This document shows positions 4,154 to 22,050 of a stretch of 22,267 nt of DNA, piece by piece. This DNA comes from Planctomycetaceae bacterium. GTDB lineage: Bacteria; Planctomycetota; MHYJ01; SBBU01. The position numbers and the translations under genes were made by a program. The notes beneath the pieces are model-generated. The model was not told where the DNA came from and made no database searches. It saw only the letters and a list, made by a program, of their open reading frames with translations. The stretch lies in NCBI GenBank assembly GCA_005239585.1, contig SBBU01000056.1, positions 1-22,267 of the forward strand, read 5' to 3'. The first letter of the stretch is position 1, and every line of letters begins with the position of its first letter.

Positions 4154-4188
4154 AATGCCAGACGAGCTGGTTGAATTATTCTGGCATT
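4154..4188. repeat. 9-bp inverted repeat, candidate antitoxin operator
   Basis: AATGCCAGA (4154-4162) and its exact reverse complement TCTGGCATT (4180-4188) are separated by 17 nt. The left arm lies just upstream of the -35 hexamer and the right arm lies between the -35 and -10 of the predicted antitoxin promoter. Phd/YefM-family antitoxins usually repress their own operon by binding inverted repeats at the promoter, so this is the natural candidate operator. That function is inferred. Confidence 0.55.
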
Positions 4189-4198
4189 GTAGTAAAAT
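4171..4198 (+). promoter_or_regulatory. Predicted sigma70-type promoter of the toxin-antitoxin operon
   Basis: TTGAAT (4171-4176) and TAAAAT (4193-4198) are separated by 16 bp, each differing from consensus by one or two bases. The expected transcription start (about 4205-4206) coincides with the A of the antitoxin ATG at 4206. No Shine-Dalgarno sequence precedes that ATG, so a leaderless transcript is likely. Confidence 0.55.
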
Positions 4199-4205
4199 TG
4201 TACAC

Positions 4206-4469: not shown

Positions 4470-4901
4470 GTGATACGGTTCTTCGATTCAACAGGCATTG
4501 TCAAGGCATTTGTACCGAAGGAAAACGGACACGATCAGGCCCGCAATCTGTTAAGCGAGCCTAGGGGTCATGGCTTGACATATGCTACAGCGGCCATCTG
4601 CGTGATAGAATCGTACTCTAAGCTTTGGCGATTGACTCGAAGCAAACGCGAGGTCGAAAAATTAGAAGACCAGCTCAAGAAATTTGATGTCTACGATATC
4701 ATAGACGACATCAGCCGTGTAAAAACTATGATCACGAAGCACGGACTCAAAGGCGCAGATAGCGCAATTCTCTCAGCTGCCATATTTCTGCATCAAACAA
4801 GCCGTGAGGTGGTTCAATTGGTTTCCTCAGATAAAGACCTCTTGAAAGCGGCTAGTAGTGAGAAACTGCGTATCATTCCTTTGCCCATGGGGTTGAGATA
4901 A
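4470..4901 (+). CDS. PIN-domain ribonuclease toxin (VapC-like)
   Basis: Probable toxin of a type II toxin-antitoxin pair: a PIN-fold, metal-dependent RNase that would inhibit translation when free. It is 143 residues, normal for VapC. Acidic residues expected to coordinate metal are visible: D6 in the N-terminal FFDSTGIVKAF strand, E47 in CVIES, D97 in KGADSAIL, and D121 (possibly D123) in VSSDKDLL. The N-terminal x-D-[ST]-[SG] strand and the GADSAIL helix are the strongest family markers. The start is GTG at 4470 with no gap after the antitoxin stop; no strong own ribosome site is visible, consistent with coupled translation. The pair interrupts an otherwise oriented gene context and may have been acquired by transfer (inference). 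Downstream 4902-5131 holds no gene I can support. Confidence 0.88.
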   Translation: MIRFFDSTGIVKAFVPKENGHDQARNLLSEPRGHGLTYATAAICVIESYSKLWRLTRSKREVEKLEDQLKKFDVYDIIDDISRVKTMITKHGLKGADSAILSAAIFLHQTSREVVQLVSSDKDLLKAASSEKLRIIPLPMGLR

Positions 4902-5131: not shown

Positions 5132-8100
5132 CTAATCTTTTACGGGGACAAGTTCTAGGAGCATTACGGCGTGCGGCACTAGAGTGATCTTCGAAAGGTC
5201 AGTTTCTTTCCCTGTGACTAGATCTTTTGCCTTGGATTTCTTTGCGGTCTCAATGGCTGCGTCAATGTTATGATTTTTATTGTTTATTACATAAACGAGG
5301 TCTCTGCCTTGCAGGTAACAGTCGCGTAGCTCTACTGCATCATTACCTTCCATTGCCTGATAACCTTTTTTTATCGACAAATCCCTCAAGCGAATGGGTC
5401 TGGCAACCTTGGCTTGATCATAGATTTTTTCCATGGCATTAAAAATCTGCTGAACAACTTTTGGCACAGAGAGCCAGATTATATTTCCTTTTCCAAATGA
5501 TGTTATAAAGATCTCATTGTCGTCTGCCAAAGGTTTTTTATTCTTAGAGGCTTGATTCAACCAGTTAGATTCATCAAGCTTGTTGCAGTACGCGTCGGAT
5601 CGTATCGAGTCTTCTGTAAGGCAAATCGTGCCGCCCTCTTTTGCATATTTCTCCAGTGCGTTAAATGCATCGTCCGGGATATAGTGAACTGAAGGCAATA
5701 TAAGTAATGGTGTCTTGGCAGGAGAAAGTGCAGAGATGGTTCGTTCAGTCGTGAATCCGACTTTGGCGTCTAGATAACGAGTTGCGTCATAAAACTTTAG
5801 CAGTGATGTCATGTGCGGTTTTCGATCCTGAATAATACTAGAGTTGCTGTAAAAGATGGAAACCGCTGTCGGTAATTGCGTAAATGCAGCGGCAATCTCT
5901 GAAAATTTTTGTAATTCAAGCGCTGTTCGCCCAAAACTCTCAAGCTCAGCAGGCTTTTGGCCAAGCCCGGCAAACTGCGGTCCCCCCAGTCCGGGCTTTC
6001 CACCTGCAAGTATTCTGATGGCCTCATGTTCAAACCATTCTATGCCCCAAGTCCAGATCCATGTCCCTTGTTGACCTCTAAGCGCAGCCTGCCATAGATC
6101 TCTCCTCATGCGGTCATAAGAATGATCATTTATATCATGTGTGGCAACATTGTGCATCTCTGCATTTATGAATGGTTTTCCGGGCGCGACAGATTTGCAG
6201 AAATCTATGCATAGCGTATCACGACTAGCATCATAGGACGTAATGTCAAGTTCGTTTAGCATACCCTCATAATCGAGATAAGGACATTCTTCTGGATTGG
6301 GGTAAAAGAAGCCCTCTATAAAGCTTGTTGCCTTGGCAAGCGGCTCTGGAAGAAATTTTAGCGTCACAGGTGTCTTGGGGTCTTTTTTACGCACGGCCTC
6401 CCGTAGAAACTTCCAAAATTCAATTGCCCGTTGCTGCTCAAAGATCCTGCGATCATAATAGGCAGCCTTGTTCTCTTTCTTGTGTATGCTGTTCAGAGAA
6501 ATGTCATCAAACGACCTAATTGAGCCTTGCCACCTCTTGTTTAATTTTTCAATTGTACTGTAGCGTTCCTTGAGCCACTCCCGGAATCTCTCTACTGCGT
6601 AACGGCATGTGCAACGATAGGAATGAATTTCGTTTCCTAACTCGTAGACGCGTAAAGTAGGATGACCAGCAATGCGGCCAACTGCAATGTCTATCCACGC
6701 ACTTTGACCTTTTCGGTGATAAGGATCCTCTATACAATGTTCAAGCCACAGCCCCTTGCAGCCAACAGGTTTAATAGGATAAGGATAATTATAGAATTTC
6801 TTTCCTACGCCGATGTTAAAGTGAAGCAATACATCCAGCTGATTATTTTTAGCCTTCTCTAGAAAATCATCCAATTGTTCAAGTGGCCGCAGGTCGTAGC
6901 ATCCTTGTTCTCTGAAAACCATTGCCCTTATCGGGTGGACATTCAAATGCACTGCATTGAGGCCAAAGTTTCTCATCTGATCCAAGTCGCGCTGAACTGC
7001 CCCCCATGTGTTGAATGGACCGACCATTTGCAGGGGCTTGGCACCCCTGTAGAAGAATCCATCTTTAATAACCACATCATCAGTTGGGGTGGGCTCCAGC
7101 TGTCCCATCTCTTTCTTTGAATCTAAAATCAATTCCTCCACGCGTTTCTCAATATAATCTAGTATCATGGCTTTCTGCTTGCTGCTATCAACACCCTTGA
7201 GGTTTGAAGTCAGTATGTCGCCCTGCAGATGTACCAAGGCTGCAAAGAGTGCGTTTTTGCTGGCAAGGAGATGGCGATAGTCTTTGCTGGTTCCCTGGAG
7301 TTTTAAAATCTCCTGTTCAAGCTGATTCAGGGATTCCCTAATCTTATAATATTGTTCTGTTTCAACCTTTTTCCATGTATCAAGAGGGGGTTGCTCGAAA
7401 CCGAGCTGACTAAAAGCTCTTAGCTTTTCTGCCGAGTCCTTTGGTACAGCCGTTTGACCATCTTTGTTTCCAAAGATAATTTTGAAACCAAAGCTTTCCT
7501 GTAAGAGCGGCTTGACCGGCGGAAAATAAACCCATGGAATCTGGCCCTCATATATGCGGACATTTTTGTCTGCATCATTTACTGCAAACTTGGCCAGAGT
7601 TAATTTCTCAAACTGCCAATGTCTGCCTTTAAGAAAGGGATTCTGATCGACCTGGCCCTCTTTGCCAAACCAAATCTCATGATCGTCTGTGTTGTAAGAT
7701 GCGGCGGAATCACCAAGTGGATCGATCGCAAGGGCCATATGGTCGCCTTGCAGGATTTTTTCTGCATTTACAGGGGGCTTGGCATACTCGACGCGCGCAG
7801 CAAAATAGATGTATTTTGTATCCCACATGATGTATGCCTTGGCTGGAAAATCACCCTTCAAGTCCTCAAACAGGATAGGGTTTATATCCTTCCATTCATC
7901 TAACTTGCCATCTATCTCAGGAGGCTTGGCACAAAATTGACAAGTATAGTCCACACCGCCCGCCAGCACCTTGGCATAACCGGGTTGATTCACCTCTATC
8001 TGCTTTAGCGGATGCTTTAATGTGGCAAATGAATGAAACGGAAAGGAAGCGTCTGCGACGACACTATCTTTTTCGCCAACTTGTACTTTTAATTTGTATT

Positions 8101-8473
8101 TTCCCTCTGCAAGTGGCTCGTGCTTTAGTGGGATAATTCTGGTTTCGTTAGCCTTGAGTTCAAATTCGACATCTTTTATTGTTATCTTTTTGGAGTCAGA
8201 TCCGTTTGTGATGATACTTGATATCTTGAGTTTGCGGTCGCTCTCAAGCGTGTTATTGACGACGATTCCAAATCGAATTGGCTCGTCATCATAAAAAACG
8301 CGAGAGATATCGCTCACTTCTTCACTTATCGTAAGACCTTGGCCTGTGGGTGTCTTGCTATCTTGGGACCGCTTTATATCGGAACAGTTATTAGCAAGGA
8401 ATAAAATTATGATTAGGAATAATCTTTTCATCACAACTTGAGCGATTGTAGCGTTGAGATGATACGACTTCAA
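5132..8473 (-). CDS. CBM9-like + GH42-like (beta-galactosidase fold) lipoprotein
   Basis: Large exported protein, probably cleaving a galactose-type or related glycoside. Numbering is from the TTG at 8473. The signal peptide core MKRLFLIIILFLANNC gives a candidate lipid-modified C30, though ANNC is a weak lipobox. Then come a beta-sandwich (about 45-150), a CBM9-like domain (about 175-365; EIDGKLDEWKD), a helical linker (about 365-460), a TIM barrel (about 464-860), a Rossmann-like trimerisation domain (about 905-970; LLILPSVHYIPDDAF) and a C-terminal beta domain. The GH42-type acid/base is E615 in ELGNEIHS, followed by CTC and WLKERY...LNKRW as in GH42. The nucleophile candidate is E772 in FINAEMHN. 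Two of the cysteines of the GH42 zinc cluster remain (C621, C623) and the third is absent. TTG is chosen because it overlaps the upstream stop as TTGA, with AGGA in front; ATG at 8431 is the alternative and puts the signal peptide at the N-terminus. Substrate is unknown. Confidence 0.85.
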   Translation of the reverse strand: MKSYHLNATIAQVVMKRLFLIIILFLANNCSDIKRSQDSKTPTGQGLTISEEVSDISRVFYDDEPIRFGIVVNNTLESDRKLKISSIITNGSDSKKITIKDVEFELKANETRIIPLKHEPLAEGKYKLKVQVGEKDSVVADASFPFHSFATLKHPLKQIEVNQPGYAKVLAGGVDYTCQFCAKPPEIDGKLDEWKDINPILFEDLKGDFPAKAYIMWDTKYIYFAARVEYAKPPVNAEKILQGDHMALAIDPLGDSAASYNTDDHEIWFGKEGQVDQNPFLKGRHWQFEKLTLAKFAVNDADKNVRIYEGQIPWVYFPPVKPLLQESFGFKIIFGNKDGQTAVPKDSAEKLRAFSQLGFEQPPLDTWKKVETEQYYKIRESLNQLEQEILKLQGTSKDYRHLLASKNALFAALVHLQGDILTSNLKGVDSSKQKAMILDYIEKRVEELILDSKKEMGQLEPTPTDDVVIKDGFFYRGAKPLQMVGPFNTWGAVQRDLDQMRNFGLNAVHLNVHPIRAMVFREQGCYDLRPLEQLDDFLEKAKNNQLDVLLHFNIGVGKKFYNYPYPIKPVGCKGLWLEHCIEDPYHRKGQSAWIDIAVGRIAGHPTLRVYELGNEIHSYRCTCRYAVERFREWLKERYSTIEKLNKRWQGSIRSFDDISLNSIHKKENKAAYYDRRIFEQQRAIEFWKFLREAVRKKDPKTPVTLKFLPEPLAKATSFIEGFFYPNPEECPYLDYEGMLNELDITSYDASRDTLCIDFCKSVAPGKPFINAEMHNVATHDINDHSYDRMRRDLWQAALRGQQGTWIWTWGIEWFEHEAIRILAGGKPGLGGPQFAGLGQKPAELESFGRTALELQKFSEIAAAFTQLPTAVSIFYSNSSIIQDRKPHMTSLLKFYDATRYLDAKVGFTTERTISALSPAKTPLLILPSVHYIPDDAFNALEKYAKEGGTICLTEDSIRSDAYCNKLDESNWLNQASKNKKPLADDNEIFITSFGKGNIIWLSVPKVVQQIFNAMEKIYDQAKVARPIRLRDLSIKKGYQAMEGNDAVELRDCYLQGRDLVYVINNKNHNIDAAIETAKKSKAKDLVTGKETDLSKITLVPHAVMLLELVPVKD

Positions 8474-9825
8474 TCTATCCTGAATAATGTCCCGTCACCC
8501 GGTTGGAGGGTCAAACTGCCTATGGTTGATATAGTCCAGACTTGACCACTGCGTACATCTGTGAGCTGTGTCCCTCCAAGATTGGAAGGGAAAAGACCGT
8601 TTTGTGAGTTGACAAAATCATAGTTTACCATCATGAGATAACGCTGGGCAGTATCTAAATGTCTGAATGTGCGGGTGCGGATCATTGACGTTGTCTGCCA
8701 ATATGAATGAGTTTCGCTCGCAAACGATTCTTCGGCCTCAAGACGAAGCAAGAGCGACTTTATGGAATTTATCGAAGAATTTACTGAGGTTGCCTCTTCA
8801 TAAATATCAGTTGTCTGTCCCTGACGAGTAAGCATCCCGTAAAGGAGTTCCTCGTATCCCGAACCGCTAACAGTATCTTGCCACCAGTGAAGAAAATAAC
8901 CTATGCCCTTGGCGCCGTGAAATAGAGATGACCAGACGAGCCAGCGCATCTGGGCCCTTGTCGGACGCCTCGCCCCATTCTGATGAGTTGGCTGCAAGAC
9001 ACCATTTTGATAGATCTCTAAATTATTCCCCTGAGTAAGGACCCACATTGGGGCATTTATCGCCTTGGCTACCTGATATACCTTCTCTTTGAATAACGAA
9101 AAAAAATAGCGGGTGTTATCATCCGAAGAGGTGTTTTGAAATGGGCCTTCACCCCAGATAATTAGCGGTGGATTCATCGCCTGAATTGCCATGACAACCG
9201 TATCCACATTGTTGTACTCAAATACTACCGGATGATTCGGATCTGCTGATCTGATTACTGTGATAACTTCATTCGCCTTGGTAAATATCTCTTGCTGATT
9301 CGGTAGTTCTTCAGAGAGTATGTGCATGATAAGCGTGTTATCTGATGCAAAACGAGGTCCATTTGATTGCCAGAAAGGTTTCACTTCATTATCCACGATG
9401 CCCTGCCAGTTCGAAGGCCACGGCCATTGAGTCTGATCCCAGTATGGGGCCAGCGAGGCTGGCCCGCTTCCCTGTGCTATTACCTTCAAACCATACTGAC
9501 TCGCTTTACCAAGCCATTGCGGGAGCATAGTTGAATAATCAATATTATTTAGCCAGATCACATCAAAACCGCGCGTCCTCAAATCAGACAGGACAATATC
9601 CATATACTGGCTTGCTTGAATCCCCCAAAGACTGGCAGCGGTGTTAAAGGCGCTATTGTCGTTCGCTGTTGCATAGATAAAGTGCGGAAATATATTGCGG
9701 ACATTAATGGCAGAAGTAGACGTCTGAGTAGTTTGCGTTCCACCTGAACTGCTCCCTTTGCTACAGCTTGCACATGTGAGAGATATAAAAAATATTGCGA
9801 GCAGCCTGTGTGTGGAAGCAATCAA
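8470..9825 (-). CDS. TIM-barrel glycoside-hydrolase-like lipoprotein
   Basis: Exported 451-residue protein of unknown specificity. The N-terminus is a lipoprotein signal peptide, with CASC and lipidation candidate C21, followed by a Ser/Thr/Gly-rich linker (about 22-40). The rest reads as a TIM-barrel glycosidase fold: a strand/helix alternation with GFDVIWLNNIDYS (about 86-98), YGLKVIAQGSG, ILSEELPN (E172/E173, the position of a clan-A acid/base), LIIWGEGPF (E226), PMWVLTQGNN, then WSSLFHGAKGIGYFLHWW, a common closing block. A clear nucleophile glutamate is not evident (Q in VLTQG where E might be expected), so the protein may be non-hydrolytic or belong to an undescribed family. A small beta domain ends it. 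TTG at 9825 is needed to include the signal peptide; the next Met is about residue 75. It overlaps the stop of the giant gene as TTGA, so translation is likely coupled. Confidence 0.8.
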   Translation of the reverse strand: MIASTHRLLAIFFISLTCASCSKGSSSGGTQTTQTSTSAINVRNIFPHFIYATANDNSAFNTAASLWGIQASQYMDIVLSDLRTRGFDVIWLNNIDYSTMLPQWLGKASQYGLKVIAQGSGPASLAPYWDQTQWPWPSNWQGIVDNEVKPFWQSNGPRFASDNTLIMHILSEELPNQQEIFTKANEVITVIRSADPNHPVVFEYNNVDTVVMAIQAMNPPLIIWGEGPFQNTSSDDNTRYFFSLFKEKVYQVAKAINAPMWVLTQGNNLEIYQNGVLQPTHQNGARRPTRAQMRWLVWSSLFHGAKGIGYFLHWWQDTVSGSGYEELLYGMLTRQGQTTDIYEEATSVNSSINSIKSLLLRLEAEESFASETHSYWQTTSMIRTRTFRHLDTAQRYLMMVNYDFVNSQNGLFPSNLGGTQLTDVRSGQVWTISTIGSLTLQPGDGTLFRID

Positions 9826-12800
9826 CTTTGGCGCTTCAACAAGACGCGTTTAAATGTAGATGCAATCAATGCAAGAATCAGAATTAAGAAGAAGAAGAGA
9901 GGTCCCTTGGGGATTCCCCTCGAGGCTGCGATCGAATCTGCGCTTACGCATGAGTTCGGGGTATTCTTGCCGCTTGAACCGACGAGCGGCGCAAGGACCG
10001 CCTCTCCACCCTCAATCAGGTCACCCTCGGCAAAGACAGTCTGGTTTGATGCCTGCCCAACTCCTATGATCTCTGTCTTTACATCCCATATAACCTTATA
10101 CGTCTTTCCTTCCTCGCCCCATCCAGAGAAATTGAATACAAAGATCCATGTCTTGCTTGACCCTTTGGGGAGTATTATTGCAAGATTACTCAAGACCGAG
10201 AGACCATTGTCAGCACTAAAGGGGCTATTCGCCCTCGCTATAATGGTATCTATATCCGGATTGTATTCTCTATTCTGATCAATGTCCTCAACCACAAACA
10301 GACTCGCAATATCCTTCGGGTCATTTCCTGTCCCTGACGACCTTATGGAGATTGAGGTAACCTTGATGTCTTCGAATCCCGAGGCCTGTATCAATGTCTT
10401 GAGCATTACAACATCGTGCTGGTATGGCAATATCTTTCCCGCCCCGGCGTATGTGATCTTTGTTACCTTGAAGCTTCCCGATACACCTACACCCGGATTC
10501 TGGAATGTCTTGGTTGCGCCAGATTGTTCCAGTCCTGTCGCTATGATTTGTGTCTGTGAACCCCTGCCTGTGCCTTTTACCAAAGTAGGGTTTATTTTAA
10601 GAGTTATTGTATCACCGATCACAAAGCCGGTGTTTGTGAGATCGTATTGGATCAGGAAGAACTTTGTAGTGCTGTTCGCTACATCGGAACTGAGTCCGGT
10701 AAATGTAAATGTCCCATTATCCGCAGAGTATGTGCCCTGGGCGAGCACTGTGTCACCCAATACATCAAAAGCGCCATTTGCATTTGCATCGTGGATCAAC
10801 CTAACGAATCTGATTGCCTGACTATCATTGGCGCTCCCAGAGGCCTGTATGGCCAGCTCGTTCAGCGTAATGGTTTCTCCTATAGCTTCCAGACTGAATT
10901 GAAGCATGTCCACCTGAATCTGACCTGATGTGACGGGACCATCGGCAGGGGACTTGAGCGGATCTTTTGAAAGTGCGAGGCTTCCCGGTGAACCTACTGG
11001 TATTATGGTTACTATTCTTCCTCTCAGTGGGTAGACACCGCCCGGAATTATTGTTAATCCGGTGCTGGCACCCTTGGCAAGTATATCAACTTGCGAATCT
11101 ATTGAGGTCTGATACTTGTTTCCGATGGCCGCACTTCCTGCCAAGTTATAGGCGACAAAAAATGTCTTGCCCGCTGAAAACGGGACAGTAACGGCTGGAC
11201 TGATGCTAAACGTCACAGGACTTGTTGTGCTAGGATATGTTGTTGAGCCAAGTAAGGTATCAACTGCCGTATTCAGCGCCCCGTCGCTATCGGCATCAAG
11301 ATAGAGCCTCACGCTTGAGAGATCAGTTACACGATTATTCGGTGTCTGGACTTCATTTATCCTAATCGTTGAAATATTTACGTCCTCCACCGAGCCTGCC
11401 GAGGCTATTATCTTCAACATCAATACATTCTGTTGATCGTTTGGTACATTAATGTCTCCGAGCGCAAGACTGGTTACAGTAAGTGTTCCAGAGGAGGCCG
11501 AGGTTATTTGGAAACTGCTTGTGGCATAAGGTCCGGCGTTGCCGGCATTGTCTTTGAGTCTTACGCGCCAGTGATATGTGGTTCCGACCGTAAGCTGATT
11601 TGAAGGGATTCCATAAAAATTGTCAGTGGTGTTTACAGTTTTTAACCCGGTTAGAAATGCAGGATCTGTGCCCCACTGAACCTCATAGAATTCACCCAAT
11701 AATTTGATTTCATACCAGTTGAGCAGCGCCGGTGTTCCTTCTGTTATCTGGTTGGGTGGTCCTATTATACTTGGTGTGGGGAATGTCAGTGTTGTTAGTG
11801 TTATTCCATCGGGGTCAGTGACAGTTGAAGTGTTGTTGGCATTATCTGTGACCCTGTAATAAATGTTTTTCAAACCATCTCCCGATGTCAGCACCCATGA
11901 CTTGGTAAAATTAAAAGCCTCAAGAGGTGAGAAGGTTATATTGTCGTTTGAGTATTCTACCTGTTGCACGCCGCTTAGATCTATAGCTGTGAGGGAGAGA
12001 GAAACAACTGTACTTCTGGTGTTGGGTGCGCCGCCATTTATCGTAATTGTTGCTGTAGGAGGAGTGGTATCAAGAATAATACTGGTCGACACTGTAGTCT
12101 CGAGACTAGAAAAGTTTCTAACCTTATAGTAGACCGTTTTAATGCCGTCACCACCTGTAGAATCCAACGTCCATGGCCTTGTTTGGAGAAATGGTTCGCC
12201 AGCCCCTGTGAATGTGCCGTTATTTGAATACCATACCTTGTCAATGCCCGTCTCGTCTCTCGCGGCAAGTTCAAGATTTACTGTAGTCGTTCTTGTGTAG
12301 AGTGTGCTTCCAACAGGATCGGTTGCTTTGATCACGATTGATGCCGTAGGCTTGTTCGATGCCCCTGTGCTGTCAAGGTATATGGTGTCAGAGGACGTGG
12401 CGCTCTTGTTCGTGTTGTCTGTGACCCTGTAATAAACAGTTTTAATTCCATCGCCTGAAGTTAGTGTCCATGCCTTGGTTGTTGCAAAGGTTTCGGCGGT
12501 GAATGTGACTCCATCATTAGAGTAACCGACCTCTTTTATTCCGCTTTGGCTCCCTGCGGAGAGTGTGAGTGTGACATTCGGATCGCTAGTATATGTTAGG
12601 CCGTTATTTATCGATATGCTTGTCTGAGGCAGGGCAGAGTCGAGATATATATTAGCTCCTACTGTAGTTTCAACTCCAAGTGAGTTTCGTACCTTGTAGT
12701 AGACTGTTTTCGTGCCATCTCCGCTTAAAAGCGTCCACACCTTGGTCGCGGCAAAGGCTTCACCGCCGCCTGAAAAAATGCCGTCGTTTGAGTACCAGAC

Positions 12801-15800
12801 GGCGCTTATGCCATATGCATCGGAGGCGGTAAGTTCAAGATTTACAGATGTTGTCCTGCTAAAAAGTGTGTTGTTTGCAGGATCAGTCGCTTTAATCACT
12901 ATGGTGGCTGTGGGTTTGTTCGAATTTCCAGTACTGTCAAGGAGTATGGTATCGCTGGCGGTTGCAGTCTTGCTCGTGTTGTCTGTGACCCTGTAATAAA
13001 CGGTTTTAATTCCGTCACCTGAAGTTAGTGTCCATGCCTTGGTGGCTGAAAAAGCCTCGGATGTAAACGAGATGCCGTCATTTGAATATCCAACCTCCTT
13101 TACTCCGCTTTGACTTGCCGCGGAGAGTGTAAGCGTGACGCTTGTAGTATTTGTTGCTGCGGCGCCGCTATTTATGACTATGCTTGCTTGCGGCAGTGAT
13201 GAGTCAAGATATATATTGGCCGTTACAGTGGTTTCAACTCCAAGTGAGTTTCGTACCTTGTAGTAGACTGTTTTCGTGCCATCTCCGCTTGAGAGAGTCC
13301 ATGCCTTGGTTGTTGCAAAGGCTTCACCACCGCCGGAAAAAGTGCCGTCATTTGAATACCATACAGCGCTTATGCCATATGCATCGGAGGCGGTAAGTTC
13401 AAGATTTACAGATGTTGTCCTGCTAAAAAGTGTGTTGTTTGCAGGATCAGTTGCTTTAATCACTATGGTGGCTGTGGGCTTGTTCGAATTCCCAGAAGAA
13501 TCCAGAAGAATCGTATCAAAGATAGAAGTTCCAGTTGAGTTGTTAGCGTTATCGATGACCCGGTAATAAACAGTTTTAATTCCATCGCCTGAAGAAAGAG
13601 TCCATGCCTTGGTCAAACTAAAGGCCTCTGATGTGAAACTGACGCCGTCATTGGAGTATCCGACCTCTTTTACTCCATTCGCGTCCGATGCAGAGAGCGC
13701 GAGAGTGACACTTGTCGTATTTGTAGCTGATGCGCCACTATTTATAACTACGCTTGCCTGGGAAGTCGTTGCGTCATAAACGATGGTAGCCGACACGGTC
13801 CTAGAGTTGTTTGCGAAATCATAAACTCGATAGTATACTGTTTTAATTCCATCTCCGCCAGAAATATCGAGCGACCAGCTCTTTGTTGCTGAAAACGGCT
13901 CGGCAGAGCTAAATACAGTACCATTATTTGAATATTGGACCCTGTCTATACCCGTATCATCACTCGCTGTAAGCTCTAGGTTCACGGCTGCAAGCCTTGA
14001 CCAGTACGTGCTATTTGCTGGGTCAGTAGCCTTGATTACGATCGTTGCAGTGGGCTGGTTAGGATCACCATAGAGTGTGCTGGTCACATTCTGCCACGCG
14101 GATAGCGAGAGCTTTACGCAAACTCCCTCCTCACCTGCAAAGAAAACAATGTCTGCTGCTGAAAATGTCCCTGAGCCGAGATTCATCGTAGTTGTCGTCG
14201 TGACATTCGTCCAGCTTGCGCCGCTGTCGGCTGATGTAATGAGTGCCCCATTTGCGCCGGATGTGTAACCTGTACTCGAGCTAACGAAAAATGTAGAGAG
14301 GAGATCTTGTGTGGTTGGTGAAATGATTGTACTCCAGAGGCCGCCTCCGTTGACGGTTCTTCTGATGGTGCCCGATGCGCCTACAGCAACGACTGTATTT
14401 CCTGTCGGAGGATCTACAATCCAGACCGATTTAAAATTAACGCTTGCGCCAAATGTGCTATTTGCCCTGCCGCCGCTGGCTATCTGCACCTTCCTGTCTG
14501 TATCTCCGATGATCCAGCCATTGCCGCCTGCCGTGCTGTTTAACATGCGAATTGAGTTTAGTGTCTCGCTTACAGCCGGGGTAATTTCTGACCACCCAGA
14601 ATTAGGCCCATATATCTTTCCACTTGCGCCGCAGGCAAATGCGTTAGTTGCATCTACAAAGTGTACTGAGTTTAGGTCAGTTGTAGCACCGCCTGCAAGG
14701 CTTTCTGTTGACCAGGTTGATCCGCCATTTGCAGTCTTTAGGATTGTCCCACCATTTCCGACCACGTAGCCATTTGATGAATCTATAAATGAAAGGCCGT
14801 TGAGTGTCTGCGTGGTCGTAATCGATGCGCCAAGACTAGAGAAGTTCCATGTAACACCCGAGTTTGTAGTGGTTATCACTCTTCCTTGGGTAGAGCATGC
14901 AAATCCAGTAGAGCCTATAAACTGCATTGAGTTTATAGTGCTCATGAGGCCGACTGACCATGTGGCGCCGGAATCTGCGCTTTTAAGGACAAGATTGTCG
15001 ACACCGCAGATAAATCCATTAGCGCCTGTAAATGAGGCATGTATAAGATCGGCATTGCCAAATTTGCCGGATACCCAGCTGTCTCCACTGTTGGCCGTTG
15101 TCAGATATCGGCCCGATGTACCTACCGCAACTCCTGTACCTAAAGAAGTAAGTCTTACAGACTTGAGATCATCTGAAGTCACAGGGGTAATCACAGACCA
15201 AATTGCTCCACCATTTGCAGATTTAAGTGTTCTGCCACCCTTACCAACAGCCACAGCTACACCGCCTGCTGTTAGATAGTGGACATCGAATAGTTCATCT
15301 GTGGTATTGCTTGTAACGTTTGACCAGTTACTACCTCCGTCAGTCGTTCTAATAATTGTCCCGAGCGATCCGACTGCGAGCCCATTTGAAGTATCCGCGA
15401 ATGAGACCGCATTTAGCCTTTTTTGAGTCCTGGATGATTGAACGCTCCATGAAGCGCCGCCGTCATCTGTTCTCATGACCAGTCCGTTTGCCCCAACTGC
15501 AAAACCTACTGTGCTGCTGAGAAACTGCACATCTGTAAAATCTTCTGTAAGAATATTTGTCGCGATAGACCAGGACCCTGAGTTCATTCTTGCGATGCGG
15601 CCATGATTTGAGACAGACAATGCTGTATTTTCATCGACAGCCCATATCGAATTTGTAGGTCCGCCCGAGTGTTGTAATGTAAGTATCTTGAATGAATCAG
15701 TTGTCTTGAAGACCCTTCCATCACTCTGTGCTATGAATCCTGTAACTCCGTTAGTTGGAAAATTAACTCTCGGGCCTGATGTTGACCCGGCCGATATTAT

Positions 15801-18800
15801 TTCAAATTCATTCAACCCGCTCGTCGTAGAGAGTGTACTAGGTCCAAATACTGTGGCATGTATGCCAAATCCGTTTCCACTGCCAAGATTAAGGACGGCT
15901 ATCTTCGGTGTAAGTATGCGGATTCGATTAAGGTTTATTCCCAAAGGGCCCGGTGTGAAATTAGGAGGCAGGGTAATGGTAGACCAGTTAACGCCTCCAT
16001 TTGTAGACTTTCGTGTGCAGTTTACAGTTGATGTTGAGCTGCCAACTGCTATTACAACATCTGCAGCCGTATCATGCCACTTGACATCGATCATCCTGTT
16101 GAGCGATCCGCCCGGGGTTACATCTGTCCAGTTTGCCCCGCCATCAATACTGCGAAATATCTTGCCAGCGAGCGATAGTGGATCTTCTCCGACCAAAAGC
16201 CCTGTGTTTACATCCTTGAACTGAACGCCATAGACAAGGGTGTTTCCCAATCCTGCGGGAAGTGTTGGATCGTCTATCCCTCCATTCCAGGTTACCCCGC
16301 CATCGGTTGTCTTGTGGATGCCGATGCCGTTTGTAGCTGTGAGCCAGCCTATACTGCTTGTGGCAAAATAGAGACTGGTATATGTGAATCCAGTCGGAGG
16401 GTGGGTAATCGGATCGTGATCGCTCTCTGCGGTCCAAGTTGTCCCACCATTTGTTGTCCGACAGCGTGTGAGGAAATCGCCTGTTGCCATGCCAAAATTT
16501 CCATCGTAGAAGAAAATGTTTTTTAGAACGTCGGTAGACCCGCTTGACTGGGAGTTCCATGTGGAACCCGAATCAGTGGTGGCAAGGATTGTCCCTCCAT
16601 CGCCGCACATCCAACCGCGATAGCGATCGATAAAGTAGGTGCTTCTCAGGTCTCCTGATGTGTCGCCTGTTGCAGGACGATTCATTCCAAACCAGCTCGC
16701 GCCGTTGTTAGTGGACTTGATCATTGTTCCAAGGTCACCTACAAGAAACCCTGAAGAGGTCTCTGGGAAGTAGGGCGTAAGGAAGAGTCCGCTTGACTTC
16801 CATATCCATGTCGGAGTTGCCGCTGTAATGTCTGAAGCAGTGATCAAAGTAGCAGAATTGCCACCTACAAAGGCAGTGTTTGTTGTCGGGACCACGGCTA
16901 CCGTTTTGAAAGATAAATAAGTACCAATATTTTTTCTTTGGGTCCATGCAGTTGCCCCTCCATCCGAGGTTGTAACAACCACAGCGCTAGTCGAGCTGTT
17001 ATCGCCTACTGCGATACCTACCGAACCATCTTTGAACGCAACCGAATTGAGGTTGACAGTTGTGCTACTGGTCTGGGCAGGCCAGTTTGTATCGCTTGAT
17101 CTCCTGAGGATGCGTCCGCTATTCCCCACCGCCCATGCAGTCGTCCCATCGGTTGCAAAGACGTCATTTAGAATTGCCCCACCCTTGTTAAACTCAATCC
17201 AGTTATCACCCGAATCAGTTGACCTGAATATCTTTGCCGTCGATGAACCTCCTACAGCCCACCCCGTCGCTGATCCAGATGCAAAATGGACCGACCGAAG
17301 CGCGTCGACTCCACTACCTACGCGTGCAATTTGCGGTGCACCCCAAGTTATACCAGCATCTGGTGACCTAACAACGACTCCGCGATCTCCTACCGCCCAT
17401 CCAGTGCTGGTGTCAAAGAAGTACAGTTTTTTATAAATTGTATCCGTTGTAGTGGCTAACTGAGTTGACCATCCAGTTCCCTCTACAAATTTATAGATCA
17501 CCCCGCTACCCGCAATCACTACCCTGACCAGATCACTCGCTGCAATGTCTAGGATGCGGGCTGAATAAAAACTTGCCACTGGAGCGCCACCAATGGCGGC
17601 CCAAGTCACACCAAAGTCTGATGACTGCCAGACAGCAGATTCACCCACGGCAACGACGCGGTCACCATTTGCGTTTGCTAGGGCAGATACACCGCGAAGT
17701 GTTGGAGTGCCTAACCCATGGGCGATTTCAGCCCAATTCTGGCCGCCATCTGTGGAACGTGCAATAACACCACTATTGCCGACTGCTATGGCCTCATCTC
17801 TGGTGCTCCCGAAGAAAGAAACAGAGTTGAACTGATCAGTATTAGCGCTGGAGTAGACTTGGGACCATGTATCACCGCTGTCGGTACTCCTCCATATTCC
17901 ACCTTGCTGAACGCAGATCGCAGCACATTCTAGTCTTGCCCCAACTGCAAGCCAAACACTACCATAGGAGAGAGTAGCTGAAAAAGTGATATCCTGACCG
18001 TTGACATCAGCACTTTTTTCCTCAGTCCAAGTTGCTCCTGTATCGACAGTTTTGTATATCCTGCCATCATCACGGATAGCACAGCCTATAGTTGCGGATG
18101 AAAAGAATACCATGTTAAAATTAAATGCCCCCGGAGAATTGAGAGGTCTCCACGTTGTGCCCGAGTCGATTGTTCTCATGATCATGCCATTGGCGCCCAC
18201 AGCATTGGCAATTGACGCGCTCTCCACCCACACGCCGCGGATGTCATTCCTAGTATTTTGAAACTTCCAGTCCGTTCCGCTGTTGGCTGTCTTCAATACA
18301 GTGTTTGCCTCGCCGACTAGGAGGGCGCTCGTGGAGCTCAGTGTGTGGATTTTTTTCCATGAAAACCGGCTTACTGTAGATGTGTCAGTCCAGTTAACCC
18401 CGCCATCTACTGTCTTTCTGACTTTATCATTCCCTGTGCCCCATGCATAGCCATTTGATGCGTCGACAAATGAAAGGTCGTTAACACTGCTGCCTCCTGT
18501 TGTCGGATTTGCCCAGTTTGTCCCGCTATCAGTCGTCCACTTTATTTGATTACCCACAACCATCCATCCTGTGGTGGAGTTGATAAACTGGACATCTGTA
18601 ATTGATCCATCGTTACCAACAGCAGAAAGGAGTGTAGACCAAACCTTCTCTGTGTTGCTTCCTGATTCCACCTCTGTCTTTATGATTGTATGGTTGTCTC
18701 CAGCAATAAATACATAATCTGATCCGCCAGCAGAATATTTTGTGCTCGATGTCAGATTTACAGTTGTTGGTGAAATGACTGTTGTAAAAGTTGTCCCGTC

Positions 18801-20513
18801 AATTGTCTTGCGAATAACTCCCCCAGCTCCTGCAAAATAAGCCAGTTTATCCGAGGCACCTGAGCCCCACTTTGCGACCACGACTGTCTGTAACTGTACA
18901 CCGGCAATGGTAGTATTAGTCCAGCTTATACCATTCCAATATGAGACAACAGAATCAGAGCCTGATAGCCCCACAGCGAAAGCTGCGCTGGAGCTAAATG
19001 CGTAGACGGCCCTGTAGTTTGCTGCTGATCCAGTTGAATCACTTGCAAAGTTGACGGCGTTGTCTGTCGATTTCAATACACGCCCAGAGTCTCCAACCAC
19101 CCAGCCTGTAGAGCCGGAGAAAGAAACAGCGTAGAGATTCTCGGCAAATGGGCCGCCTGTAATAGTTGGCGTGCTCCAGGTATCACCCTGACTATCGGAA
19201 TATCTTATAACCCCAGCGCCTGCTGATGCGTCGCCTGCAATGATTACCCGGCCGCTCGGTCCGCTTGACCATACACCGCGGAGGTTAGTGGTTAATCCAG
19301 TAGTCTTTGAGGTTGCGAGAGTTGATGTCAGGAGTATGAACCTCCCGCTGTCGCCCACTGCGTAGCCAAATGTTGAGGCATCATCAAAGGCAAAAGTAGA
19401 ATTCAGATCCAAAGAAGTTCCAGTGCTAAATGGCAGGAATCGCCTCGCGTCGTTATCGATAGTGCGTGCAGCAAAGCCGCGAGGCGCCGCGATGAGCCCG
19501 CGCGATGCCGATGCCAGCGAGATTGATTTTATATTAATACGCGGTTGCGGGGTAAGGATATTGTCCCAGCTCTCGCCGGTAACTGACTTGATCGCGGTCC
19601 CAGTATTTCCGACCGCAAAGCTTGTTAGGGTATCTATTACAGCTACAGCGTTAAGCTGCACAGAGACGGGGCTTGTGACGGATGCCCACGAGGTCCCAGT
19701 ACTGTCTGATCTTAGGATTGTCCCGCTGGCCCCAACAACCCAAACGGAGGTAGAGCTTATCCACGCAAGACCTCTTAGATTATTAGAGGTGCCAGAGCTT
19801 GGAGATGTCCAGTTAAGACCTCCATCTGCCGTCTTGAGAATTCTTCCAGCATCGCCTACTGCAATGCCGTTTGTCGAGTCTACAAATTTGACTCGATAGA
19901 GATTATCAGTCCCTGCCGCAATAGTTGGTGTTTGCCATGTGTTTCCCCTATCAGTGGTCCTTCTCACTGACATTGCGCCGCCAGAAGCATCTCCAACATA
20001 AATGCCGATATCATCACTGGTGAAGTAGAGCGATCTTACTGTTACAGCGGAACCGCTCAGCAGATCGCCAGTCCAAGAACTCCCCCCATCTTCAGACCTG
20101 TAGAGCACCTCGCCTGAACCTGCGACCCAGACCTTCATGGTGGAAACTGAAATGCCCCTGGCAAAGACTCCGAAGAACTCAGTCCCGCCCGGGACTCCAG
20201 GTATGGCAATCACTGTCCAGTTCGTCCCGGCATTTGTGGTCCTAAGAACCGTCCCGTTTGCGCCGACTGCAAAACCAATAGATGGGGAAGAAAAGTAAAT
20301 TGAGTTGACCTTGTTGGTTGTTCCAGAGGTCATTATCTGAAAGCTGGATGCGCCATCTATAGTGCGCAATATTCTTCCGTTAGCGCCTACGATCCAGCCG
20401 TTTGTGTTGTTATAGAAAATCACATCATTGTAGTCATCCGTTGGTTGTATTGCGGGCACCCCTAGAATTGCGCTAAAAGAGACCCCCATAAGCAAGATGG
20501 GAAACAACCTCAT
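9822..20513 (-). CDS. Giant secreted YCF48-propeller / OmpL47-repeat surface protein with C-terminal sorting-like tail
   Basis: First gene of a three-gene operon, 3563 residues. Signal peptide at 1-18 or slightly longer (MRLFPILLMGVSFSAILG). Residues about 28-2140 are some 49 YCF48/Asp-box blades, each about 43 residues, with the pattern VGxxGxIxRTxDGGxxW. About 2150-2910 are eight OmpL47-like Ig repeats (YSNDG...W-T-L-x-SGDG-x-KTVYY-x-V). About 2911-3006 is a fibronectin-III-like domain (YHWRVRLKDNAGN). About 3007-3518 are three related beta domains with Ca-like D-x-D-x-D-G loops (DADSDGALN, DANANGAFD, DIDQNREYN). The C-terminus has Cys3522 in SCVSADSIAAS, a membrane helix (about 3538-3552) and a basic tail (KRVLLKRQS), resembling protein-sorting tails. 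A surface-exposed binding or adhesive role is likely; no enzyme motif is seen. ATG at 20513 has AGAGG six bases upstream and a promoter at 20535-20562. Confidence 0.92.
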   Translation of the reverse strand: MRLFPILLMGVSFSAILGVPAIQPTDDYNDVIFYNNTNGWIVGANGRILRTIDGASSFQIMTSGTTNKVNSIYFSSPSIGFAVGANGTVLRTTNAGTNWTVIAIPGVPGGTEFFGVFARGISVSTMKVWVAGSGEVLYRSEDGGSSWTGDLLSGSAVTVRSLYFTSDDIGIYVGDASGGAMSVRRTTDRGNTWQTPTIAAGTDNLYRVKFVDSTNGIAVGDAGRILKTADGGLNWTSPSSGTSNNLRGLAWISSTSVWVVGASGTILRSDSTGTSWASVTSPVSVQLNAVAVIDTLTSFAVGNTGTAIKSVTGESWDNILTPQPRINIKSISLASASRGLIAAPRGFAARTIDNDARRFLPFSTGTSLDLNSTFAFDDASTFGYAVGDSGRFILLTSTLATSKTTGLTTNLRGVWSSGPSGRVIIAGDASAGAGVIRYSDSQGDTWSTPTITGGPFAENLYAVSFSGSTGWVVGDSGRVLKSTDNAVNFASDSTGSAANYRAVYAFSSSAAFAVGLSGSDSVVSYWNGISWTNTTIAGVQLQTVVVAKWGSGASDKLAYFAGAGGVIRKTIDGTTFTTVISPTTVNLTSSTKYSAGGSDYVFIAGDNHTIIKTEVESGSNTEKVWSTLLSAVGNDGSITDVQFINSTTGWMVVGNQIKWTTDSGTNWANPTTGGSSVNDLSFVDASNGYAWGTGNDKVRKTVDGGVNWTDTSTVSRFSWKKIHTLSSTSALLVGEANTVLKTANSGTDWKFQNTRNDIRGVWVESASIANAVGANGMIMRTIDSGTTWRPLNSPGAFNFNMVFFSSATIGCAIRDDGRIYKTVDTGATWTEEKSADVNGQDITFSATLSYGSVWLAVGARLECAAICVQQGGIWRSTDSGDTWSQVYSSANTDQFNSVSFFGSTRDEAIAVGNSGVIARSTDGGQNWAEIAHGLGTPTLRGVSALANANGDRVVAVGESAVWQSSDFGVTWAAIGGAPVASFYSARILDIAASDLVRVVIAGSGVIYKFVEGTGWSTQLATTTDTIYKKLYFFDTSTGWAVGDRGVVVRSPDAGITWGAPQIARVGSGVDALRSVHFASGSATGWAVGGSSTAKIFRSTDSGDNWIEFNKGGAILNDVFATDGTTAWAVGNSGRILRRSSDTNWPAQTSSTTVNLNSVAFKDGSVGIAVGDNSSTSAVVVTTSDGGATAWTQRKNIGTYLSFKTVAVVPTTNTAFVGGNSATLITASDITAATPTWIWKSSGLFLTPYFPETSSGFLVGDLGTMIKSTNNGASWFGMNRPATGDTSGDLRSTYFIDRYRGWMCGDGGTILATTDSGSTWNSQSSGSTDVLKNIFFYDGNFGMATGDFLTRCRTTNGGTTWTAESDHDPITHPPTGFTYTSLYFATSSIGWLTATNGIGIHKTTDGGVTWNGGIDDPTLPAGLGNTLVYGVQFKDVNTGLLVGEDPLSLAGKIFRSIDGGANWTDVTPGGSLNRMIDVKWHDTAADVVIAVGSSTSTVNCTRKSTNGGVNWSTITLPPNFTPGPLGINLNRIRILTPKIAVLNLGSGNGFGIHATVFGPSTLSTTSGLNEFEIISAGSTSGPRVNFPTNGVTGFIAQSDGRVFKTTDSFKILTLQHSGGPTNSIWAVDENTALSVSNHGRIARMNSGSWSIATNILTEDFTDVQFLSSTVGFAVGANGLVMRTDDGGASWSVQSSRTQKRLNAVSFADTSNGLAVGSLGTIIRTTDGGSNWSNVTSNTTDELFDVHYLTAGGVAVAVGKGGRTLKSANGGAIWSVITPVTSDDLKSVRLTSLGTGVAVGTSGRYLTTANSGDSWVSGKFGNADLIHASFTGANGFICGVDNLVLKSADSGATWSVGLMSTINSMQFIGSTGFACSTQGRVITTTNSGVTWNFSSLGASITTTQTLNGLSFIDSSNGYVVGNGGTILKTANGGSTWSTESLAGGATTDLNSVHFVDATNAFACGASGKIYGPNSGWSEITPAVSETLNSIRMLNSTAGGNGWIIGDTDRKVQIASGGRANSTFGASVNFKSVWIVDPPTGNTVVAVGASGTIRRTVNGGGLWSTIISPTTQDLLSTFFVSSSTGYTSGANGALITSADSGASWTNVTTTTTMNLGSGTFSAADIVFFAGEEGVCVKLSLSAWQNVTSTLYGDPNQPTATIVIKATDPANSTYWSRLAAVNLELTASDDTGIDRVQYSNNGTVFSSAEPFSATKSWSLDISGGDGIKTVYYRVYDFANNSRTVSATIVYDATTSQASVVINSGASATNTTSVTLALSASDANGVKEVGYSNDGVSFTSEAFSLTKAWTLSSGDGIKTVYYRVIDNANNSTGTSIFDTILLDSSGNSNKPTATIVIKATDPANNTLFSRTTSVNLELTASDAYGISAVWYSNDGTFSGGGEAFATTKAWTLSSGDGTKTVYYKVRNSLGVETTVTANIYLDSSLPQASIVINSGAAATNTTSVTLTLSAASQSGVKEVGYSNDGISFTSEAFSATKAWTLTSGDGIKTVYYRVTDNTSKTATASDTILLDSTGNSNKPTATIVIKATDPANNTLFSRTTSVNLELTASDAYGISAVWYSNDGIFSGGGEAFAATKVWTLLSGDGTKTVYYKVRNSLGVETTVGANIYLDSALPQTSISINNGLTYTSDPNVTLTLSAGSQSGIKEVGYSNDGVTFTAETFATTKAWTLTSGDGIKTVYYRVTDNTNKSATSSDTIYLDSTGASNKPTASIVIKATDPVGSTLYTRTTTVNLELAARDETGIDKVWYSNNGTFTGAGEPFLQTRPWTLDSTGGDGIKTVYYKVRNFSSLETTVSTSIILDTTPPTATITINGGAPNTRSTVVSLSLTAIDLSGVQQVEYSNDNITFSPLEAFNFTKSWVLTSGDGLKNIYYRVTDNANNTSTVTDPDGITLTTLTFPTPSIIGPPNQITEGTPALLNWYEIKLLGEFYEVQWGTDPAFLTGLKTVNTTDNFYGIPSNQLTVGTTYHWRVRLKDNAGNAGPYATSSFQITSASSGTLTVTSLALGDINVPNDQQNVLMLKIIASAGSVEDVNISTIRINEVQTPNNRVTDLSSVRLYLDADSDGALNTAVDTLLGSTTYPSTTSPVTFSISPAVTVPFSAGKTFFVAYNLAGSAAIGNKYQTSIDSQVDILAKGASTGLTIIPGGVYPLRGRIVTIIPVGSPGSLALSKDPLKSPADGPVTSGQIQVDMLQFSLEAIGETITLNELAIQASGSANDSQAIRFVRLIHDANANGAFDVLGDTVLAQGTYSADNGTFTFTGLSSDVANSTTKFFLIQYDLTNTGFVIGDTITLKINPTLVKGTGRGSQTQIIATGLEQSGATKTFQNPGVGVSGSFKVTKITYAGAGKILPYQHDVVMLKTLIQASGFEDIKVTSISIRSSGTGNDPKDIASLFVVEDIDQNREYNPDIDTIIARANSPFSADNGLSVLSNLAIILPKGSSKTWIFVFNFSGWGEEGKTYKVIWDVKTEIIGVGQASNQTVFAEGDLIEGGEAVLAPLVGSSGKNTPNSCVSADSIAASRGIPKGPLFFFLILILALIASTFKRVLLKRQS
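11780..14070 (-). repeat. Eight OmpL47-like Ig repeats in an alternating A/B array
   Basis: Eight copies of a roughly 95-residue unit are recognisable from the GDG-x-KTVYY block, which on the + strand gives the tract ...taataaa/tagtaga..gtttt near 11855, 12130, 12425, 12700, 12990, 13265, 13560 and 13840. Two kinds alternate. One has VGYSNDGxSF and YYRVTDN (near 11855, 12425, 12990, 13560). The other has VWYSNDG and YYKVRNS (near 12130, 12700, 13265; the 13840 copy is diverged). The higher-order period is 564-574 bp (about 190 residues), a pattern expected from duplication of a two-domain block. Confidence 0.85.
12643..13497 (-). repeat. Near-identical 564-bp-spaced repeat copies
   Basis: The segments starting at 12643 and 13207 align along their whole length, about 290 bp each, without a gap at an offset of 564 bp. 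Within them 12802-12887 equals 13366-13451 over 86 bases, and 12802-12914 has a single mismatch in 113 bases. The remaining copies of the array are far more diverged, so this pair is the youngest duplication or has been homogenised by gene conversion. Confidence 0.85.
14100..20430 (-). repeat. About 49 tandem YCF48/Asp-box beta-propeller blades
   Basis: Reading the translated giant gene blade by blade, I count about 49 occurrences of the VGxxGxxxxTxDGGxxW signature; a few are degenerate. Examples are AVGSLGTIIRTTDGGSNW and VVGNGGTILKTANGGSTW. The count is approximate because degenerate blades (for example near 15850-15950 and 19330-19480) can be split differently. YCF48/HCF136 folds as a seven-bladed propeller, so the tract could form about seven consecutive propellers. 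Blades are diverged at the DNA level. Confidence 0.85.
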
Positions 20514-20534: not shown

Positions 20535-20562
20535 ATTTTATCAAGCATAGCGGGGATATCAA
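20535..20562 (-). promoter_or_regulatory. Predicted sigma70-type promoter of the giant-protein operon
   Basis: On the minus strand TTGATA (20562-20557) and TAAAAT (20540-20535) are separated by 16 bp, each one base from consensus. Transcription would start near 20528, leaving a short leader that still contains the AGAGG ribosome site (20524-20520), six bases before the ATG at 20513. It is the only good promoter found for the three-gene operon. Confidence 0.6.
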
Positions 20563-20832: not shown

Positions 20833-22050
20833 ATGGCTAGAAGATACGCAATTCTCAGTATAGTTCTATTAGCAGGATATCAATCTGAGGGCACGAATTT
20901 CCTTATAAAATTAAAAGACGGGACGATGTTCCTATCTCATTTTCAAGTCAAGGAACTTGAACTAAAGACAAAAGAGGGTGATTTAAAGTTCGCGATCAGC
21001 GATATTAAATCGATCAAACAGGGAAAGACTGGACTCTCCGTAAAGACCACCAAGTCGATAGTAGAAGGCAAAATCGACCAAGACCTCAAATTCAAGGCAA
21101 AGCATGGGACTCTGACTATAAAGCAAGAAGATATAGCCGCAATAGTGCCCGCTCAAAAAAGGGTCTTTGTTGATGACAGTGTTACAGCGTATTGGGATTT
21201 TGATCAGTGTGAGGAAATAAAACTAAACAGTTCAAAATTAGAAACCGAGGATGACAACTCAGTTGTCAAGCTTGATCTATCGAATCACGATACTATAGAG
21301 ATTCCACACTCGGAAAATATCAGCATGAAGGAAGAAGTTGTGATTGAGATGAGGTTTAAATATTCATCCAAAGGAATAGAAGGAAACTGGATCAACCTTC
21401 TCAGAAAAGGAAATAGGTATAATGCAGCTAATTACGAGATTTGGATATTGCCCGGGGGAAAAAATATCCAAGTGGATGCCCTTTTTACAAAGGGTCAGAG
21501 CATAGCCACGCAATTCAAAGCAGTGGGTCTTGAAGCGGACAAGTGGCTTCACATGGTTTGTATGATCAGCACTAAAAAGAAGGAGATGGAGGTCTATATA
21601 AACGGTAAAATGCAGGAAAAATCTTCAAAGCCTGTTTTAGGAGATACCCTTCAGATCAATGACTCGTCTATTTACATCTGCAAGGAGACATATGAAAATA
21701 AAAATACAATGTGGATTGATTATTTGGCTATTTCAGGCAAGGCCTTGGAACCCGAGGAGATCAAGGAACTATACGAGTCAGGAAATCGTGTCAACTCAAT
21801 CAAACCACCAGTAAGCAAGGAGTACAACTCGATCCTGATGACTAAAAGTGGTGAGCGATATGCGGGAAAGCTAGACAAATATCTTGAATTTGAATCTCCA
21901 TTCGGAGATGTAAAGGTCAGTACTGCGATAATAGAAAAGATGACATTTTTCGAGTACAGAAAAGATGAGGTAGATAAACTCCACAAAAAGGCAAGAGAAT
22001 TGATCCCCAAACTGGGAGATGATGACCCGCATGTAAGAGAGAAAACGTAA
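20833..22050 (+). CDS. Secreted LamG-domain protein, HEAT-like C-terminus cut by in-frame TAA
   Basis: 405 residues up to the TAA at 22048. ATG at 20833 follows AAGGG at a good distance. The N-terminus is a signal peptide whose end reads L13-A-G-Y16, one base from a lipobox LAGC. Next come two copies of a small beta motif (about 24-62, LIKLKDGTMF...FAISDIKSI; about 68-106, TTKSIVEGKI...IKQEDIAAI). Residues about 115-318 are a LamG/concanavalin-A-like jelly roll, starting AYWDFDQCE, with WLHMVCMIS...EVYINGK and IDYLAISGKALEPEEIKELY as the usual closing block. A third beta motif (about 327-372; LMTKSGERYAGKL) follows. From about 383 the sequence PKLGDDDPHVREKT begins a HEAT-like segment that stops abruptly. 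The same frame continues through 22248, so the gene appears interrupted. Function is unknown; LamG domains commonly bind glycans or proteins. Confidence 0.85.
   Translation: MARRYAILSIVLLAGYQSEGTNFLIKLKDGTMFLSHFQVKELELKTKEGDLKFAISDIKSIKQGKTGLSVKTTKSIVEGKIDQDLKFKAKHGTLTIKQEDIAAIVPAQKRVFVDDSVTAYWDFDQCEEIKLNSSKLETEDDNSVVKLDLSNHDTIEIPHSENISMKEEVVIEMRFKYSSKGIEGNWINLLRKGNRYNAANYEIWILPGGKNIQVDALFTKGQSIATQFKAVGLEADKWLHMVCMISTKKKEMEVYINGKMQEKSSKPVLGDTLQINDSSIYICKETYENKNTMWIDYLAISGKALEPEEIKELYESGNRVNSIKPPVSKEYNSILMTKSGERYAGKLDKYLEFESPFGDVKVSTAIIEKMTFFEYRKDEVDKLHKKARELIPKLGDDDPHVREKT

Follow-up and report, generated by a model that had tools for sequence, protein, structure and literature searches.

What is a protein with about 49 propeller blades for, and how are its blades arranged? 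The question is raised by a 22,267-nucleotide stretch of DNA from a Planctomycetaceae bacterium (contig SBBU01000056.1; "the window" below). As originally predicted, positions 9822-20513 encode a protein of 3563 residues. Its gene runs along the minus strand, from an ATG at 20513 to a stop at 9822-9824, with a frame uninterrupted over 10.7 kb. On balance, we favor the view that this giant protein is secreted and anchored at the surface, and that it has a head of seven rings, a stalk of Ig-like doublets, a C-terminal anchor, and a role in multivalent binding. The features of the locus are listed in Table 1. (The promoter-like site in the table is one of 26, compared to 26.4 expected in shuffled sequences, so such sites occur at chance frequency.)

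Table 1. Parts of the giant protein, listed from its N-terminus to its C-terminus, and adjacent features.
Feature	Positions	Strand	Basis or remark
Promoter-like site, 5' of the giant gene	20535..20562	-	10/12 consensus matches; weak
Signal-peptide-like N-terminus (residues 1-24)	20442..20513	-	sequence reading; hydrophobic in all three orthologs
Ring 1, blades 1-7 (residues 25-324)	19542..20441	-	
Ring 2, blades 8-14 (residues 325-633)	18615..19541	-	
Putative ring 3, blades 15-21 (residues 634-935)	17709..18614	-	blade count only; boundary extrapolated; Asp-box kept in blade 21
Putative ring 4, blades 22-28 (residues 936-1240)	16794..17708	-	blade count only; boundary extrapolated
Putative ring 5, blades 29-35 (residues 1241-1575)	15789..16793	-	blade count; top single 7-blade window in phase test
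Putative ring 6, blades 36-42 (residues 1576-1856)	14946..15788	-	blade count only; Asp-box kept in blade 42
Putative ring 7, blades 43-49 (residues 1857-2149)	14067..14945	-	blade count only
Stalk, eight Ig-like repeats as four doublets (residues 2150-2908)	11790..14066	-	Big_7 and OmpL47-type matches
FN3-like domain (residues 2909-3005)	11499..11789	-	sequence pattern only; kept in orthologs
Three D-x-D-x-D loop domains (residues 3006-3508)	9990..11498	-	alignment A4
Motif PLVGSSGKx(5)C...P.GP (residues 3509-3538, Cys 3522)	9900..9989	-	pairwise identity; profile A9/A10 matches
Hydrophobic helix, basic tail, stop	9822..9899	-	sequence reading, orthologs
Apiosidase-like, secreted-looking protein	8470..9825	-	PF13204 E 0.0017, below Pfam cut-off; ORF overlaps giant gene by 4 nt
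GH42-type protein with CBM9 domain	5132..8473	-	PF02449 4.7e-23, PF06452 1e-5; ORF overlaps apiosidase-like ORF by 4 nt

We began with the number of blades, which had been put at about 49 from the bare sequence. An iterated blade HMM found 45 Asp-box (YCF48-type) blades across residues 25-2109. Another four, in the spacing gaps and after the last match, were read from the spacing by eye (about residues 978-1022, 1197-1240, 1519-1575, and 2110-2149). This makes 49, as originally counted. At E ≤ 0.01, the protein matches three Pfam families: PF14870 (YCF48), PF15902 (sortilin type), and Big_7. As a sequence match, the hit to YCF48 is far beyond chance (E = 1.7e-85; 287.4 bits versus a cut-off of 27). 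PF15902 is also above its cut-off (85.8 bits versus 33), in two stretches, the better being residues 873-974. The NCBIfam equivalog model for Ycf48 (NF010237) matches in nine stretches (2.5e-94).

We then asked if the blades are conserved. In a protein search, 2179 candidates with lengths of 1960-6235 amino acids were compared, and 48 were listed, including the giant protein itself (P0001). Among the matches listed, only P0003 (3204 amino acids) and P0004 (3041 amino acids) align over both the head and the anchor. These two metagenomic orthologs are 50% and 46% identical to the giant protein. For the other 45, the Pfam families and the C-terminal ends suggest that blades or Ig repeats account for the match. 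A scan of GTDB genome contigs with two peptide patterns found no relative of the whole protein. The same 49 blades recur, collinear, in all three orthologs. When gaps were filled mechanically under a second, pooled blade model, the counts were 49 for P0001, 49 for P0003, and 50 for P0004; given the blade-for-blade alignment of the three sequences, we read the 50th as over-filling.

Do 49 blades form seven rings of seven, as the original prediction suggested? For blades 1-14, we have a structural model. We ran AlphaFold2 on residues 20-640, a query that ended after blade 14, with a 14-row alignment (pLDDT 89.6). The model has two domains, residues 22-321 and 323-614, and each matches seven-bladed propellers. 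Its sole internal segment (of at least 3 residues) with pLDDT under 50 is residues 321-324, at the junction of blades 7 and 8. A caveat is that the alignment was drawn partly from arrays of 14, 21, and 27 blades, so this 7 + 7 prediction and the array counts discussed below are not independent lines of evidence. With high confidence, blades 1-14 are predicted to be two rings of seven. A longer query (residues 20-1219; 3 rows, with only the two orthologs added) gave a mean pLDDT of 44, which is unusable, and we discarded it.

For the other 35 blades, seven rings of seven is our best reading and is probably right, with rings 3-7 extrapolated. We also weighed a fairly unlikely alternative, in which blades 1-14 form two seven-bladed rings, the remainder forms rings of other sizes (such as nine, five, and ten), and the total of 49 is a coincidence. 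Three observations argue against it. First, the count is kept across the three orthologs. Second, cutting the head into sevens gives rings of even length (281-335 amino acids). Third, in 15 other YCF48-type proteins, 12 of the 22 blade arrays are multiples of seven, versus about 3 expected. (The 15 are the PF14870-bearing proteins among the 45 other matches listed, and include the near-duplicates P0027/P0028 and P0034/P0035.) But the other ten arrays are not multiples of seven (8, 27, 41, 13, 11, 5, 13, 6, 9, and 8 blades), which favors other ring sizes. Some of these counts, which are uncorrected, look like a weak blade missed or added (27, 41, 13, 6, and 8, in part). A second set of arrays, taken from loci, gave a weaker result: 16 of 34 are multiples of seven, and 13 of the 16 are just seven. 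The remaining 18 have 6 blades (eight arrays), 8 (four), 11 (two), 9, 10, 12, or 13. In this set, L008 and L010 are the same protein, as are L009 and L011 (from a Polyangia genome, not a planctomycete), and several loci are cut near 3 kb. Overall, the blade counts of YCF48-type arrays tend toward multiples of seven.

The match to PF15902 also favors other ring sizes, as sortilin (Vps10) has a ten-bladed propeller; its best stretch lies beyond blades 1-14, which are predicted to be 7 + 7. So does a ring-position phase test, in which phase 0 (each ring ending at a multiple of seven: blade 7, 14, 21, etc.) was not best in any of the three orthologs. Phase 5 scored above it in P0001, phases 5 and 6 in P0003, and phase 6 in P0004, which leaves it second, third, and second. 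Of 17 control arrays, the profiles put 13 in the correct phase (the misses are L016, L033, L034, and one array of P0009). These controls were preselected to have a multiple of seven blades and include near-duplicates (P0034/P0035, P0027/P0028, and L036/L041). A follow-up parse of ring positions by windows gave no clear parse and did not favor the boundaries of phase 0. Nor is there a seven-blade periodicity in the similarity between blades (multiples of lag 7; permutation p = 0.28). A last line of evidence is the Asp-box, which is absent from the last blade of a ring in a table of PMC2716378. By eye, the Asp-box is unclear in blades 7, 14, 28, 35, and 49, and is present in blades 21 and 42, the last blades of putative rings 3 and 6. 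Blades 8, 9, 23, 37, 45, and 46 are also unclear, which again favors other sizes. In short, the proposed seven rings of seven are modeled for blades 1-14 and favored by the prevalence of sevens elsewhere, but rings 3-7 gained no support from the phase test.

How do these rings compare to known propellers? By sequence, the solved relatives are Ycf48 and HCF136 (PF14870; PDB:2xbg, 5ojp, and 5ojr), which consist of Asp-box blades in a seven-bladed ring of roughly 300 residues, like ring 1 of the giant protein. Ycf48 aligns to residues 26-312, or one whole ring. Ring 1 matches these proteins by fold as well: single rings of Ycf48 align to the model over about 300 columns (target TM 0.73, rmsd 3.8). 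But the giant protein has 49 blades instead of 7, and 3563 residues compared to a ring of about 300-340, with a stalk and anchor added. It also scores under the cut-off for the Ycf48 equivalog (316 versus 326 bits). It probably has no link to photosystem II, and its neighboring genes fit with the original view that it does not function in photosystem assembly.

The top Foldseek match for residues 20-640 is to the tandem 7 + 7 Asp-box propellers of GH74 xyloglucanases (1.7e-18; PDB:5fkq, 2cn3, and 1sqj). GH74 enzymes have two catalytic acids in the cleft between their rings. Could the head be an enzyme of this kind that acts on xyloglucan-like polymers? This is very unlikely. GH74 structures do top the Foldseek list, and the neighboring genes are carbohydrate-active, but these matches rest on the geometry of the fold (12-16% identity), and no GH74 chain is among the 6 sequences found by a PDB sequence search (E ≤ 0.01). 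The rmsd over both rings is about 14, so the rings are arranged differently relative to each other, and GH74 has two rings while the giant protein apparently has seven. According to PMC2716378, the tandem propellers of GH74 come from one uninterrupted stretch of blades. Another structure, 2ymu, is a highly repetitive double propeller (which we take to be of the WD40 type), with 12% identity and two rings.

Other parallels are metagenomic proteins with long arrays of the same blade type. Counted mechanically, P0009 has arrays of 14, 14, 7, and 8 blades; P0020, P0034, and P0035 have 21 each; P0014 has 27; and P0031 has 41. They differ from the giant protein in having other partner domains and fewer blades, and they are not collinear relatives. 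We noted multiple rings in eight YCF48-type proteins (P0009, P0020, P0027, P0028, P0031, P0032, P0034, and P0035, with 7, 14, 21, or, in P0031, 41 blades). For three of these (P0020, P0034, and P0035), the source gives the name CXXCH cytochrome family. In the literature, we recognized no paper on long tandem YCF48 arrays among the matches listed. The giant protein is an extreme new form of a known kind, the tandem Asp-box propellers.

Next to the head is the stalk. The eight Ig-like repeats of the original prediction are there, as four doublets, with profile matches to Big_7 (Pfam) and to an OmpL47-type model (NCBIfam). The four repeats of the first type were identified by their pattern and by direct DNA repeats; those of the second type were identified partly by eye. 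The direct DNA repeats are spaced by 564-573 nt and are up to 89% identical. P0001, P0003, and P0004 have 4, 2, and 1 doublets. As the 49 blades are the same in all three, the head is fixed in number among these proteins while the stalk is rebuilt. The doublet (at 11790-14066) has been multiplied in steps of about 564 nt, so stalk length probably changes between strains. Similar DNA repeats on a single metagenomic contig can be assembled wrongly, so we considered that the gene might be an assembly artefact or a decaying repeat gene. This is extremely improbable: the frame is open from end to end, and two orthologs on other contigs have the same head.

We then examined the C-terminal region, whose domain borders we drew by eye. 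The three D-x-D-x-D domains are present as originally described, and a hydrophobic segment and a basic tail are there too. The fibronectin-like domain is recognizable by its pattern but has no Pfam match at E ≤ 0.01. The D-x-D-x-D region has no match in the PDB, nothing from NCBIfam for P0001, and in the scans made no Pfam family over its cut-off (GEVED at E = 0.47 and 1.1; Big_7 at 0.0011 in one of three members). A search among proteins of 310-990 amino acids found no homologs of the C-terminal region at E ≤ 0.001 (7996 candidates), but this is not a true absence, because relatives of its domains did turn up when genomes were searched with a profile. At E ≤ 0.001, 57 of 392 genomes of the phylum have matches to the profile for D-x-D-x-D (A4). 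Most of these matches cover part of the profile, and a single long frame often holds several of them. At L059-L078, frames of 1000 to over 4000 amino acids often carry several copies of the domains, which have no Pfam name here. Going by these profile matches, D-x-D-x-D is a widespread surface-protein domain. Its loops may bind calcium.

The complete module together with its tail, in contrast, is rare. Among the matches listed, nearly all 562 positions of A4 are covered only in one genome, G163, which is apparently from the Planctomycetota (1.9e-98, 1.2e-96, and 3.5e-88). A 55-residue profile of the tail, run over 294 genomes, also had G163 first (5.8e-7; the next best was 0.008). Adding three G163 tails to the profile uncovered two more G163 proteins, C85 (1.2e-5) and C286 (0.0066). 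In the ORFs of both, Ig-type repeats precede the complete module, and the C-terminus consists of LVGSSGH...C, a hydrophobic stretch, and an Arg-rich end. All five of the module-bearing proteins found in G163 have GSSG followed by a basic residue (K, R, or H) and, a few residues on, a Cys, a hydrophobic stretch, and a basic end. In these proteins (L050, L079, L080, L098, and L099), the FN3-like domain, three D-x-D-x-D domains, and tail follow repeats of the Ig or FN3 type; four of these ORFs run off the end of their contig. The Cys is invariant in all six aligned tails (the helix and basic tail were identified by reading). Among the three orthologs, pairwise identity is 63, 60, and 77% in the tail motif and 17-35% in the helix and tail after it. 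Outside of G163, the tail profile (A10) has unconfirmed matches in G251 (1.1e-4; a short frame with a stop), in G168 (2.3e-4; the motif filter returned nothing from this locus), and in others with E of 0.001-0.01. As a processing enzyme, we considered CPBP proteases, but with 6 matches in G163 they are too common to name one.

Because the module also ends five proteins of one genome, it looks like a dedicated surface anchor, and the tail motif is possibly a new Cys-containing sorting signal. Its layout is that of MYXO-CTERM in the Myxococcota, with a C-terminal Cys motif, a membrane helix, and a basic tail (as described in PMC11980579), but with another motif, and the Cys of the giant protein is 17 residues before the hydrophobic stretch, unlike in MYXO-CTERM. 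The MYXO-CTERM model (TIGR03901) gave no match to the giant protein's own tail, and its best E value was 2.2, in one of the six tails. We suspect that the tail is attached by a chemistry that involves the Cys. Of all parts of the protein, this tail signal is the one most likely to be new in kind. A bolder and more doubtful idea, which we offer tentatively, is that the fixed head of 49 blades in seven rings and the freely varying stalk are joined to a previously undescribed Cys-dependent tail signal that acts as MYXO-CTERM does, and that otherwise different surface proteins of the Planctomycetota share this signal.

What might the giant protein bind? Two glycoside-hydrolase-like genes lie behind it in an apparent operon; the 4-nt overlaps between the ORFs depend on the start codons as listed, which are putative. 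Because these apiosidase-like and GH42-type/carbohydrate-binding genes follow, we guess that the ligand is a polysaccharide, by guilt by association. Upstream on the window are genes for MreC, MreD, PBP2, and RodA, and then, downstream of rodA on the plus strand (4131-4901), a Phd/YefM-type antitoxin and a PIN-like ORF (below cut-off), probably a toxin-antitoxin pair. PBP2 (MrdA) points to a deep planctomycete relative as the source: among its matches with an organism name, Planctomycetota come first (38 and 31% identity) and Omnitrophica next (33%). RodA gave 7 scattered loci with no taxonomic signal. Divergent from the giant gene and head to head with it (20833-22050, plus strand) is a gene for a secreted-looking protein of 405 amino acids with a LamG-type (Laminin_G_3) domain.

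The layout and the neighbors together suggest multivalent binding at the surface, perhaps of polysaccharide. The gene product would be secreted and then anchored at the cell surface. A ligand with a repeating structure, most likely a polysaccharide, would be met by a face presented again on ring after ring. The head would be carried on the stalk, whose length would fix the reach from the cell and would be altered by duplication of doublets; after the stalk would come the FN3-like domain, the three D-x-D-x-D domains, and a tripartite anchor (Cys motif, membrane helix, and basic tail). The protein had been proposed to be extracellular and fibre-like. This is supported by an N-terminus that resembles a signal peptide, by the variable Ig stalk, and by the C-terminal anchor shared with other proteins. 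It had also been proposed to be an adhesin or a surface layer component. An adhesin is plausible. The protein could instead belong to an S-layer or be a purely structural coat protein with no specific ligand, as it is long, repetitive, apparently surface-anchored, and poor in cysteine (just 11 in 3563 residues). We find this quite unlikely, as S-layer proteins of the SLH-anchored type have SLH domains, which are not among the protein's Pfam matches (E ≤ 0.01), and a variable stalk with a fixed head is better suited to presenting the head than to forming a lattice.

The giant protein suggests that chains of Asp-box propellers can grow far longer than the tandem pair of GH74, always by sevens, and that the unit of growth is the seven-blade ring. 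It also suggests that in such a protein the head is kept blade for blade while the stalk is remade by duplication. Finally, the tail suggests a route for surface anchoring, probably in the Planctomycetota, that has no NCBIfam or Pfam model name here. If confirmed, the tail would help to list the surface proteins of such uncultured bacteria from their sequences.
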